In this document: positions 16,573 through 20,309 of the stretch, one piece after another
Position numbering within the stretch: the stretch's first letter is position 1
How the letters are laid out: every line of letters begins with the position of its first letter
From: Planctomycetota bacterium
Lineage (GTDB): Bacteria > Planctomycetota > UBA8742 > UBA2392
Reading direction: 5' to 3'
NCBI GenBank assembly: GCA_020425695.1
Contig: JAGQRE010000024.1
Location: 1-36,784 of the forward strand
DNA: 36,784 bases
Translations under genes and position numbers: made by a program
The notes under the pieces: generated by a model
What the model was told of the DNA's origin: nothing
The model's database searches: none
What the model saw: only the letters and a program-made list of their open reading frames with translations

Positions 16573-17805
16573 CTACACCTTGGCGAAATAGGCCTTGTGC
16601 TTCTCAAGGGCTTCGGCGCTAAGCGCATCTTGGCGCGTTTCCGTGTGTCCGAAAGGGCTCATTTCACGCAGTCGCTTTACGATGCCGGCGATCTTGTCGA
16701 TCGCAGCATCAACTTCGCCTTCTTCGGTGTAGCGGCTTACGCAAAACCGCACACTTCCATGGATCGCGCTAAGTGGGACGTTCATGGCAAGCAGCACGTG
16801 GCTGGGTTCCATGCTGCCGCTCTTGCACGCGCTGCCTGCGCTGACGGCGATGTCGGCTGCATCAAGCATCATCAACAGCGCTTCGCCATCGATGTACTTG
16901 AAGCCTGCATTCAGCGTGTTGGGCAGGCGGTCCATCTGGTCGCCATTGATGATGACGTCTTCGCACTTCGCCAGCAGACCACCCTGAAGCCGGTCGCGCA
17001 TCTTCTTCATGTGCTCGATGTGCTTGTCGAGGTTGCGATTCACCAGCGCGGCTGCGGCACCCATAGCAACGATGCCCATGGCGTTTTCTGTGCCCGCTCG
17101 GCGACCATCTTCGTGGTGTCCGCCGCGGATCAGTGGCAGAAAGGGTGCTGACTCGCGTACAAACAGCGCGCCTGCACCCTTGAGCCCATGAAACTTGTGC
17201 CCAGAGATCGTCAGGTAGTCGATCGCAAGTTCTTCTTTCAGGTCGATCTTGAGTTTGCCGGCCGCCTGAACGGCATCGACATGAACCAGCGCGCCGAACT
17301 GCTTTGCGATGTCGCCGGCCGCGTTGATCGGGCTGATTACGCCGGTCTCGTTGTTGGCCCACATCAATGAAACTAGTGCGGTGTCGCCACTGATTTCGTT
17401 TTTTAGCTCATCAAGGTCGATATGCCCCAGGCGATCGACACTGAGTTCTGTGATGCGGTAGCCTGCTTCAGCCAGATAGCGAATGACTTCAAGGACGCTG
17501 GCATGTTCAACGCGAGTCGTGATGATGTGCTTGCGCTCCGGCATGCCATCAAGTGCCGCGTAGACTGCCGTGTTGTTGCCTTCGGTTGCGCCGGAGTTGA
17601 AGACGACTTCGCTGGTTTTGCAGTTCAGCAGCTTCGCGACGTTCTCACGCGCCAGTTCAATTTCGTGCCGCACCTTTTGGCCGAACGAGTGCGTGCTACT
17701 TGGGTTGCCATAGATCTCGCCAAACAAAGGCAACACCGCCTCAACACCTTCCGGCGCCGGAAAGGTCGTACTGTTGTTGTCTAGAAAGATCGGTCGGTCA
17801 GTCAT
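16573..17805 (-). CDS. nifS: cysteine desulfurase, NifS type
   Basis: The 410-residue enzyme is a pyridoxal-phosphate class V aminotransferase-fold cysteine desulfurase. It removes sulfur from L-cysteine to feed iron-sulfur cluster assembly. Visible markers in order: LDNNSTTFPAPEGVEAVLP near the N-terminus, NPSSTHSFG, FNSGATEGNN, the cofactor-contact stretch MWANNETGVI, VDAVQAAGK, the lysine that binds the cofactor in SGHKFHGLKG (Lys204), and the mobile active-site loop SAGSACKSGS with Cys327. The ATG at 17805 gives the family N-terminus; an upstream GTG frame to 17862 would add a 19-residue extension with no support. It lies 69 bases downstream of nifU, so the two should form one transcript and act together. 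All catalytic residues are present, unlike its partner. Confidence 0.93.
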   Translation of the reverse strand: MTDRPIFLDNNSTTFPAPEGVEAVLPLFGEIYGNPSSTHSFGQKVRHEIELARENVAKLLNCKTSEVVFNSGATEGNNTAVYAALDGMPERKHIITTRVEHASVLEVIRYLAEAGYRITELSVDRLGHIDLDELKNEISGDTALVSLMWANNETGVISPINAAGDIAKQFGALVHVDAVQAAGKLKIDLKEELAIDYLTISGHKFHGLKGAGALFVRESAPFLPLIRGGHHEDGRRAGTENAMGIVAMGAAAALVNRNLDKHIEHMKKMRDRLQGGLLAKCEDVIINGDQMDRLPNTLNAGFKYIDGEALLMMLDAADIAVSAGSACKSGSMEPSHVLLAMNVPLSAIHGSVRFCVSRYTEEGEVDAAIDKIAGIVKRLREMSPFGHTETRQDALSAEALEKHKAYFAKV

Positions 17806-17874: not shown

Positions 17875-18774
17875 TTATCTCATCGGTGGGGCGTGCAGTT
17901 CATCGGAGTGTTCGGTGGTGTCGATGACCTGAATTTCAGGGTCGACCATCTCGCGCAGACGGTCTTCTACGAAGAACTTCATCGTTGTCGTGCTGGAGGC
18001 GCAACTGTTGCAGTGGCCGTGCAACTGCACGAACACCTTGTTGCCCTGCACGTCGACCAGTTCCATGTCGCCGCCGTCCATGGCGAGCCCCGGGCGCACT
18101 TCGCGATCCAGCACTTCCTGAATCGCGCGCATCTTGTCGAGGTTGGTCATGTTGCCGCCGGGCGCGATCTTTGGCGCGGGCTTGTCTTCCTTGGGCTGCG
18201 GCATTTCTGCACGCACGCGCTCCAGAATCATCTTCAGATCGACGTGGCAGCTTGTGCAGCCTCCGCCAGCCTTGGTGAAGTGTGTGATCTCGTCGATGGT
18301 CGTCAGGTTGTTGTCGCGTATGGCGCGTTCGATCTTCTGTTCCGGGACGCTGTAACAGCGGCAGATGTGTAACTCGTCGTCTTCGTCCAGCTCTGTTTCA
18401 AGCTCAATGCCGCGGTAGCGCGCGTAGGCAACTTCCAGCGCTTCCATGCTCATGACGCACGTGTGCATTTTCTCGGCCGGCAGACCACCCAGATACTCGC
18501 TGATGTCGTCGGCGGTAACCCGCGCGGCTTCGTCGATGTGCTTGCCCTTCAGCATCTCAGTCAACGCGCTGCTGGCCGCGATAGCGCTCGGGCTGCCGAA
18601 CACCTGGAAGCTGGCCTGCTGGATGATTTCTGCCTCGTCCAGCTTCAAATAGAGCTTCAAAGCCTGGCCGGAGGACATAGAGCCGACTTCACCCACGACG
18701 CTGGCGTCTTGAATCACACCTACATTGCGTGGGTTGATGAAGTGGTCTTTGATTTTGTCTGAGTATGTCAGCAT
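17875..18774 (-). CDS. nifU: NifU-type Fe-S assembly protein with degenerate scaffold domain
   Basis: The 299-residue protein has the three-domain order of NifU: an IscU-like scaffold (~1-125), a central ferredoxin/BFD domain (~135-185) and a C-terminal Nfu domain (~215-285). The central cluster ligands (ICRC and CTSC) and the Nfu CNSC pair are intact. In the scaffold domain, however, the three cysteine positions used by NifU/IscU to build a transient cluster are changed. The first (Cys35 in Azotobacter NifU) is Ser35 in GSMSSGQ, which also lacks the following Asp; the second is Ser61 in FGSPSA; the third is Thr105 in MHTCVM, with a Cys one residue later. Surrounding residues remain well conserved, so the domain looks structurally kept. 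It may therefore pass clusters through the other two domains rather than building them as usual. nifS lies downstream. Confidence 0.88.
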   Translation of the reverse strand: MLTYSDKIKDHFINPRNVGVIQDASVVGEVGSMSSGQALKLYLKLDEAEIIQQASFQVFGSPSAIAASSALTEMLKGKHIDEAARVTADDISEYLGGLPAEKMHTCVMSMEALEVAYARYRGIELETELDEDDELHICRCYSVPEQKIERAIRDNNLTTIDEITHFTKAGGGCTSCHVDLKMILERVRAEMPQPKEDKPAPKIAPGGNMTNLDKMRAIQEVLDREVRPGLAMDGGDMELVDVQGNKVFVQLHGHCNSCASSTTTMKFFVEDRLREMVDPEIQVIDTTEHSDELHAPPMR

Positions 18775-18833: not shown

Positions 18834-18881
18834 CATATCCGTTGGTTTGAAGGCAGGTTGCGCAAAGGCTATCGTTGCGGC

Positions 18882-20309
18882 ATGAAAGTTGACTTCTCAG
18901 CAGCCTGGAAAGAACACGAACGCATGGCGCGGGCCGTGCCACCGGCGTTGAAGGCGACCCTGGGGGGTGCTTTCACGCCGCGTGTCCTTGCGCTGCGTGT
19001 TGCCCACGAGACGCTTTCCAGGTTTCCGCGCAATGACGTTCCGACACTACTTGACCCCAGCTGCGGGCTTGGCTCGCTGTTGCTGGCGTCCATTGAGTGG
19101 GCCTGCGTCTCACGCCCGCAGTGGGTCAAGGCGTGGCTGCAAGGCGGGAAGCTGCGCGGTTGGGAGGTTTCGCGCGAACTAAGTGATGGCACGAAACGAG
19201 TGCTTGAGATTGCAGGTCAGTGCCTGAAACTTCAGGTTCGTCCCAAACTCGTCATTCGGGATTCCCTTGAAGCAGACGAGCGCGAGGTTTGTGACGCCGT
19301 GATAGCCTGTCCTCCGTGGAAGGATCTGGCCGGTGCCGCCGCGCAGGACATACCGCCGGCTAAGCGTGCGCAGATTGCGCGACGCTTCGGATCATTCACC
19401 GGTACGCCGGCCTTGCACACGGTTTTCACCGAACTTGGTGGGCGCTTGATAAAACGTGACGGCGGGCGGATGGGCGTGCTTCTACCCTTGCGCGTAGCGG
19501 ACAGCCCGGACTACGCGGCGTTCCGACGCGCGATGGCACAACTGGTTGTACCGGAGCAGATTCTGGCGCAGGGTCAGGGTGTCTTGCCGGGTGTGCGCGA
19601 TGACGCGGGCTTGTTCATACTCACGGCCGGTCGGGGTGATGTTAGCGGCGAGCCTTGGGAGTCCCGCGCCGATGAGCAGGAGCAGGTCTACCAGACCAGT
19701 ATCCTGCGGCACATTCCGCTGCCGCCGACGAGCTTTGGCGATATCGGCGTGAATACAGGTAACTCTGAGGCATTGCTGATCACGGACAAGCCCGAGCAGC
19801 ACGCACAGCCGATTCGTGATGCGAGTGACGTGATCGCCTTTGCCATGCGGAAGCCACGTCGTTTTCTGCGTACGCGCGCGGGCGGACAAACGGGTCACTA
19901 CGCGCGCATCGCTCCGGCCGCGAGTTTCAAGCAAACGCGGATCGTGATCAAACGGGACGCCCAGCGCCCGATTGCGGCCAAGCACAACCCGCAGGCTTAC
20001 TTCCGCGATGACCTGATCGCGTGCTTTGGTGGGCCGGACCACGACGACGACTTCTTGCTGGGGGTCTTTAACTCCGAGTACTTCGGGCGCTTGTACCGGG
20101 ACAGTTTCAAGGAAACGCGGCTTCGTGCCGAGGGGCGCATTACAGTAGAACAGTTACGCGCTTTGCCGGTCCCGTCTCGAAGAGCTGCCGGTGCGTCCTA
20201 CAACCAGATCATTCAACTGAGCCGAGAGCTGCAGAAGTGCGCGGGCAAGAACCCGCGAATGCTTGCGCAACTCGACACGGCGGTCCGCAAGGCTTACACC
20301 GGCAAGTAG
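18882..20309 (+). CDS. orphan N6-adenine DNA methyltransferase-like protein
   Basis: The 475-residue protein has the gamma-type N6-adenine methyltransferase layout: an N-terminal helical region ending GAFTPRVLALRVAHETL, the S-adenosylmethionine motif LLDPSCGLGSLLLAS (residues ~57-71) and the catalytic motif IACPPWKDL (~140-148). The usual form of the latter is (N/D/S)PP(Y/F/W), and here the first position is Cys, which may change the target or reduce activity. The C-terminal half resembles the target-recognition part of type IIG/TaqI-like enzymes, ending with NSEYFGRLYRDSF and the RITVEQLRALPVP stretch. No restriction nuclease or specificity subunit is adjacent. The ATG at 18882 is preferred over an in-frame TTG at 18858. 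The next gene begins at the base after its stop. It could modify DNA without restriction, or another substrate. Confidence 0.75.
   Translation: MKVDFSAAWKEHERMARAVPPALKATLGGAFTPRVLALRVAHETLSRFPRNDVPTLLDPSCGLGSLLLASIEWACVSRPQWVKAWLQGGKLRGWEVSRELSDGTKRVLEIAGQCLKLQVRPKLVIRDSLEADEREVCDAVIACPPWKDLAGAAAQDIPPAKRAQIARRFGSFTGTPALHTVFTELGGRLIKRDGGRMGVLLPLRVADSPDYAAFRRAMAQLVVPEQILAQGQGVLPGVRDDAGLFILTAGRGDVSGEPWESRADEQEQVYQTSILRHIPLPPTSFGDIGVNTGNSEALLITDKPEQHAQPIRDASDVIAFAMRKPRRFLRTRAGGQTGHYARIAPAASFKQTRIVIKRDAQRPIAAKHNPQAYFRDDLIACFGGPDHDDDFLLGVFNSEYFGRLYRDSFKETRLRAEGRITVEQLRALPVPSRRAAGASYNQIIQLSRELQKCAGKNPRMLAQLDTAVRKAYTGK

Follow-up and report, generated by a model that had tools for sequence, protein, structure and literature searches.

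A NifU homologue without scaffold cysteines in a family of Planctomycetota

A NifU homologue encoded in a 36,784-nucleotide stretch of planctomycete DNA (the window) lacks all three cysteines of the usual scaffold site, as does every homologue of it found in the same family. This protein, referred to below as the Cys-less NifU, is probably an Nfu-type [4Fe-4S] carrier, with a Cys-less IscU domain whose role would be to dock NifS or apo-targets. The roles of the two possible assembly sites of NifU have reportedly been studied through Cys mutation in Azotobacter. The Cys-less NifU is a natural, family-scale counterpart to such mutants, with the N-terminal site abolished, the other two strictly kept and nifS linked, and it makes testable both the role of an IscU domain apart from cluster assembly and the service of NifS to an Nfu domain alone. 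No description of a NifU without scaffold Cys was found among the open-access papers searched, which is weak evidence of novelty.

The gene and its domains

The window belongs to a 4.14-Mb Planctomycetota MAG that is 88.7% complete, and its relevant features are collected in Table 1. A Pfam search of the protein gave the domain order NifU_N, Fer2_BFD and NifU/Nfu, and the NCBIfam model TIGR02000 (NifU_proper) scored it at 326 bits, its cut-off being 273.3. Ser35, Gln37, Ser61 and Thr105 stand where the usual NifU has Cys, Asp, Cys and Cys, respectively. A sequence-only reading of the window had pointed out the three missing Cys and the replacement of Asp by Gln; the first is confirmed by the residue table and the codons (TCC for Ser35, AGC for Ser61, ACG for Thr105) and the second by the codon CAG at position 37. 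Next to Thr105 lie His104 (CAC) and Cys106 (TGC), the latter being the single Cys of the window protein's N-domain. The description of the adjacent nifS as complete was equally accurate, in that the gene is full length and encodes the PLP-lysine and active-site Cys motifs (SGHK and GSACKSG); its product scores 504 bits with TIGR03402, slightly below the cut-off of 530.75.

Table 1. Positions of nifS, the Cys-less NifU gene and its domains in the window
Feature	Position	Strand	Remarks
nifS, cysteine desulfurase	16573..17805	(-)	Directly downstream of the Cys-less NifU gene; likely start ATG at 17805
NifU homologue with Cys-less scaffold	17875..18774	(-)	299 aa; Pfam and NCBIfam profile matches
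C-terminal Nfu domain, residues 218-284	17923..18123	(-)	PF01106; CNSC intact; proposed cluster-carrying site
BFD-like [2Fe-2S] domain, residues 137-185	18220..18366	(-)	PF04324, 60 bits; CRC and CTSC intact
IscU-like N-terminal domain, residues 3-124	18403..18768	(-)	PF01592 match, 130 bits

Extent of the cysteine loss

Sixteen genomes of the family (f1) were examined, and the gene was present in 15 of them, spanning five genera and including the window's own; all are incomplete MAGs, 76-94% complete, so that absences weigh less than presences. The three scaffold Cys are gone in 15/15 homologues, and the residues that replace them vary: Ser, Thr, Ala or Arg at position 35, Ser, Gly or Lys at 61, and Thr or Ala at 105. 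As far as the residues themselves go, Cys138, Cys140, Cys173 and Cys176 of the BFD domain and Cys255 and Cys258 of the Nfu domain are present in all 15, and what was claimed for the window, an intact ferredoxin-like CxC/CxxC and an intact Nfu CxxC, thus holds for the family. The sequence-only reading proposed checking whether relatives share the changes, and held that sequencing errors, or relatives with normal cysteines at these positions, would undo its case; neither was encountered, since all 15 family genomes with the gene are without the three Cys. An error of sequencing or assembly has a negligible probability and is ruled out as the cause, the loss being common to 15 separate genomes with differing replacement residues. 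Elsewhere in the phylum, 392 genomes of which were scanned, 42 full-length NifUs were read that are classed as canonical by position outside families f1, f2 and f14, and the three scaffold Cys are kept in 42/42.

Scaffold Cys have also disappeared from more distant proteins. The sister-family (f2) genome G016 encodes two Cys-less NifU-like proteins beside a canonical ISC locus, one of them without a BFD domain, and no nifS was found adjoining either. In f14, nine proteins (L110-L114, L116, L117, L119 and L130) are without scaffold Cys and without the Nfu CxxC but keep the BFD Cys, and no nifS match adjoins those that were checked; L118, in the f14 genome G247, is a copy with normal scaffold Cys. 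A further type occurs in several planctomycete families (L057:4808-5578, L133, L135, L137 and L139): these Nfu proteins have no BFD domain, and the NifU_N-like domain at their front is Cys-less and very divergent. A phylogenetic tree groups f1 with f2 (99/99 support), away from f14. The AU test does not reject a topology in which every Cys-less row belongs to a single clade (p = 0.27), and the Cys may have been lost once or several times, either being compatible with the tree test.

Retention of the scaffold fold

With invariant positions defined as those at least 95% identical in the canonical NifU N-domain, 35 are kept in the family and 14 are changed. The changed positions are mostly ligand sites and their surroundings (35, 37, 58, 61, 63, 64, 67, 102, 105, 106, 108 and 109), the other two being 2 and 39, and the retained ones bear out the earlier observation that the fold residues of the scaffold domain are kept. 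Pairwise dN/dS in the N-domain is ~0.02-0.22 by the Nei-Gojobori method, an approximate figure with dS near saturation in some pairs, and the BFD and Nfu domains lie in the same range. The N-domain is thus under purifying selection. Because the 35 invariant residues are kept under such selection, the domain seems functional rather than decaying: its cluster site is lost and its fold is retained. An AlphaFold2 model of the N-domain, built from six close sequences and of moderate confidence (mean pLDDT 64, pTM 0.40), was compared with the PDB by Foldseek; IscU structures, IscS-IscU complexes included, came out on top, and the persulfurated SufU structure 6jzw was among the hits.

nifS linkage and the Fe-S assembly setting

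In 14 of the 15 family genomes nifS adjoins the Cys-less NifU gene. The exception is G015, in which nifS is unlinked, on another contig, and the loop at 104-106 of the NifU homologue has decayed further. The sole family genome without a Cys-less NifU, G008, has no close NifS either; it is 84% complete and a gap is possible. In G002 the nifS gene at about 5076 of L157 is split over two pieces, probably by an assembly error or a frameshift. On the other side of the window's gene lies a divergent neighbour (18858-20309, plus strand), a putative adenine-specific DNA methyltransferase with a weak, below-cut-off match to a TaqI-like specificity domain, and this neighbour is conserved beside the Cys-less NifU gene in genera g1, g2 and g5.

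The Fe-S assembly genes of the family are of the SUF and not of the ISC type. SufBD matches occur in 16/16 family genomes, the window's own having one only, SufE occurs in 15/16, and the SUF operons that were read include SufS and a DUF59 protein. The SUF contig of the window's own genome ends just before sufD, a cut that can explain why SufB and SufE are missing there. By contrast, G016 and G018, neighbours at the order and class level, have a canonical IscU and no SufBD, so that a switch of Fe-S assembly system lies inside this small class, SUF being found in the family without A-type carriers. No A-type carrier (PF01521) was detected in any of the 11 family genomes searched, whereas PF01521 was found in the sister-family genome G016 and in nine controls. 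Mrp/ApbC-type ATPases, which are carriers, are present. Nitrogenase was not found, there being no PF00148 match above cut-off in 17 genomes.

The sequence-only reading had also asked whether a separate IscU or SufU exists in the genome. Each family genome except G007 has a single PF01592 match, and no other IscU- or SufU-like protein was found in 14/15 family genomes. The extra match in G007 (L059:8265-8717, contig C8) is a 151-residue stand-alone NifU_N protein, seen in that genome only, with two of the three Cys, and the idea of a hidden second IscU or SufU was rejected. The family-wide loss, the purifying selection and this lack of another IscU or SufU in 14/15 genomes support the proposal of a NifU that works without a classic IscU scaffold. 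In the window's own genome no Nfu domain was found beyond that of the Cys-less NifU. A number of relatives encode an additional Nfu protein, and the two of these that were scanned by Pfam proved to be fusions of Nfu to a hemerythrin (HHE) domain; second Nfu proteins in the family and in G016 are L144:2099-3010, L142:2662-3465, L140, L141, L143, L145, L147, L148 and L149, and those beyond the two scanned look similar to the fusions.

The SUF setting also bears on the explanation that the protein is a decaying remnant, in which the NifU scaffold site drifts after a takeover by SUF and the gene is being lost. The presence of SUF and absence of ISC in the family, set against the reverse in G016 and G018, would fit such a course, as would G008 with neither Cys-less NifU nor close NifS. 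It is nonetheless quite improbable, in view of the low dN/dS in all three domains, the invariant residues kept, and the frames that, in 15/15 genomes of five genera, are open over their full length and retain the BFD and Nfu Cys.

Cys106 and Gln37

Cys106 and Gln37 occur together in 11/11 genomes of genera g1, g2 and g5, which form an inner clade. The four outer genomes (g3 and g6) have Asp37, Ser, Pro or Ala at position 106, and zero Cys in the N-domain; His104 is kept in 14/15 of the family. Cys106 is absent from the sister-family copies, and it is most simply read as a later gain in one subclade. The suggestion of the sequence-only reading that Cys106 is a shifted ligand did not hold: it is found in only 11/15, the four others being Cys-free throughout the domain, and it therefore cannot be a general replacement ligand and was rejected as a family-wide one. 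Moreover, one Cys with His104, in a site where Asp37 has become Gln, does not provide as many ligands as a normal IscU site needs. An N-domain that goes on assembling a cluster on unusual ligands, drawn from Cys106, His104, Ser or Thr oxygens, NifS or a second subunit, could call on the wide retention of His104 and Cys106, but is highly improbable given the four members without any Cys, the variability of the Ser and Thr positions and the disappearance of Asp37 from 11/15.

Cys can also accept persulfide, as in SufE and SufU and at the third Cys of ISCU. In the inner clade Cys106, with Gln37, might be a re-invented persulfide acceptor, through which the pseudo-scaffold would receive sulfur from NifS and relay it to the Nfu domain or to another acceptor. 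The two residues go together in the 11 inner genomes, neither occurring in the four outer ones, Cys106 is the domain's sole Cys and lies one residue past the canonical third ligand, and the fold is related to that of SufU, with the persulfurated form among the structural hits. The relay is nevertheless unlikely. The Cys-free outer members keep nifS adjacent (g3, and 2/3 in g6), so that retention across the family would stay unexplained; the co-occurrence of Cys106 and Gln37 may reflect a single phylogenetic event; and SUF brings its own SufS and SufE.

Proposed role of the Cys-less NifU

In the favoured reading, as a docking-assisted Nfu carrier, the N-domain would dock NifS and/or apo-targets and build no cluster, and the BFD domain would keep a permanent [2Fe-2S] cluster and supply electrons. 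The Nfu domain, as a dimer, would be the sole seat of a transferable [4Fe-4S] cluster, since with the N-terminal site gone it is the only remaining site able to hold one. That cluster might either come from SufBCD or be made in place with sulfur from NifS, and, in cells lacking A-type carriers, would then be passed on to clients. Precedent for the second source is offered by a 2005 paper whose title, as cited in PMC11605450, reports that NifS drives assembly in the C-terminal domain of NifU from Azotobacter. The Cys-less NifU most likely works on the same principle as NfuA, whose degenerate A-type domain is required to target the Nfu domain to clients although it does not itself bind a cluster (PMC8593673).

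As to the docking partner, the adjacent nifS, together with the fold, speaks for NifS. Some points count against the favoured reading. The persistence of NifS is less expected if SufBCD with SufS and SufE supplies all clusters. Docking may not be needed in G015, with its unlinked nifS and decayed 104-106 loop. The Mrp/ApbC-type carriers and the second Nfu of some members mean that the Cys-less NifU is not the sole possible carrier in all of them. A more specific reading is possible though doubtful: that the IscU domain has been re-purposed as a cluster-free module for NifS docking or for sulfur relay (in the inner clade via a newly arisen, strictly conserved Cys106-Gln37 pair), the protein being a one-site, desulfurase-coupled Nfu carrier. 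If true, desulfurase and carrier would be connected by a route bypassing the IscU scaffold, in SUF bacteria without A-type carriers.

Comparison with known systems

The Cys-less NifU resembles Azotobacter vinelandii NifU and the proteins of TIGR02000 in its three-domain order, above-cut-off score, BFD CxC/CxxC, Nfu CxxC and nifS neighbour. It differs from A. vinelandii NifU in that the three scaffold Cys are absent, the Asp is lost in 11/15 and the genomes have no nitrogenase; service to nitrogenase through an association with nif genes, which membership in TIGR02000 does not strictly require, is likewise lacking, as judged by PF00148 in the 17 genomes. Outside nitrogen fixation a NIF system can be the sole Fe-S system, as in Helicobacter pylori (PMC8144621). 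Its architecture and score make the protein a NifU homologue, but without the defining ligands it does not qualify as a NifU scaffold. TIGR02000 accepts it though these ligands are missing, which calls for caution in annotation, an Fe-S scaffold label being misleading here.

With IscU and SufU (PF01592) the N-domain shares the fold and most invariant residues, but its set of ligands for a cluster or for zinc is no longer complete. The f2 paralogues and the f14 proteins have lost the scaffold Cys as well; unlike the Cys-less NifU, one f2 copy is also without BFD and neither has a nifS found beside it, and the f14 proteins are also without the Nfu CxxC, only the BFD site being intact. The resemblance to NfuA of E. 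coli and A. vinelandii is that an Nfu domain, with its CxxC, is preceded by a domain that is related to a cluster-binding one but has no ligands itself. The Cys-less NifU is not a member of the NfuA family, however: its dead N-domain is of the IscU type, with a match to PF01592, the degenerate A-type domain (PF01521) being absent from the protein and PF01521 from the genome as well, a BFD [2Fe-2S] domain lies between this N-domain and the Nfu domain, and NifS is adjacent.
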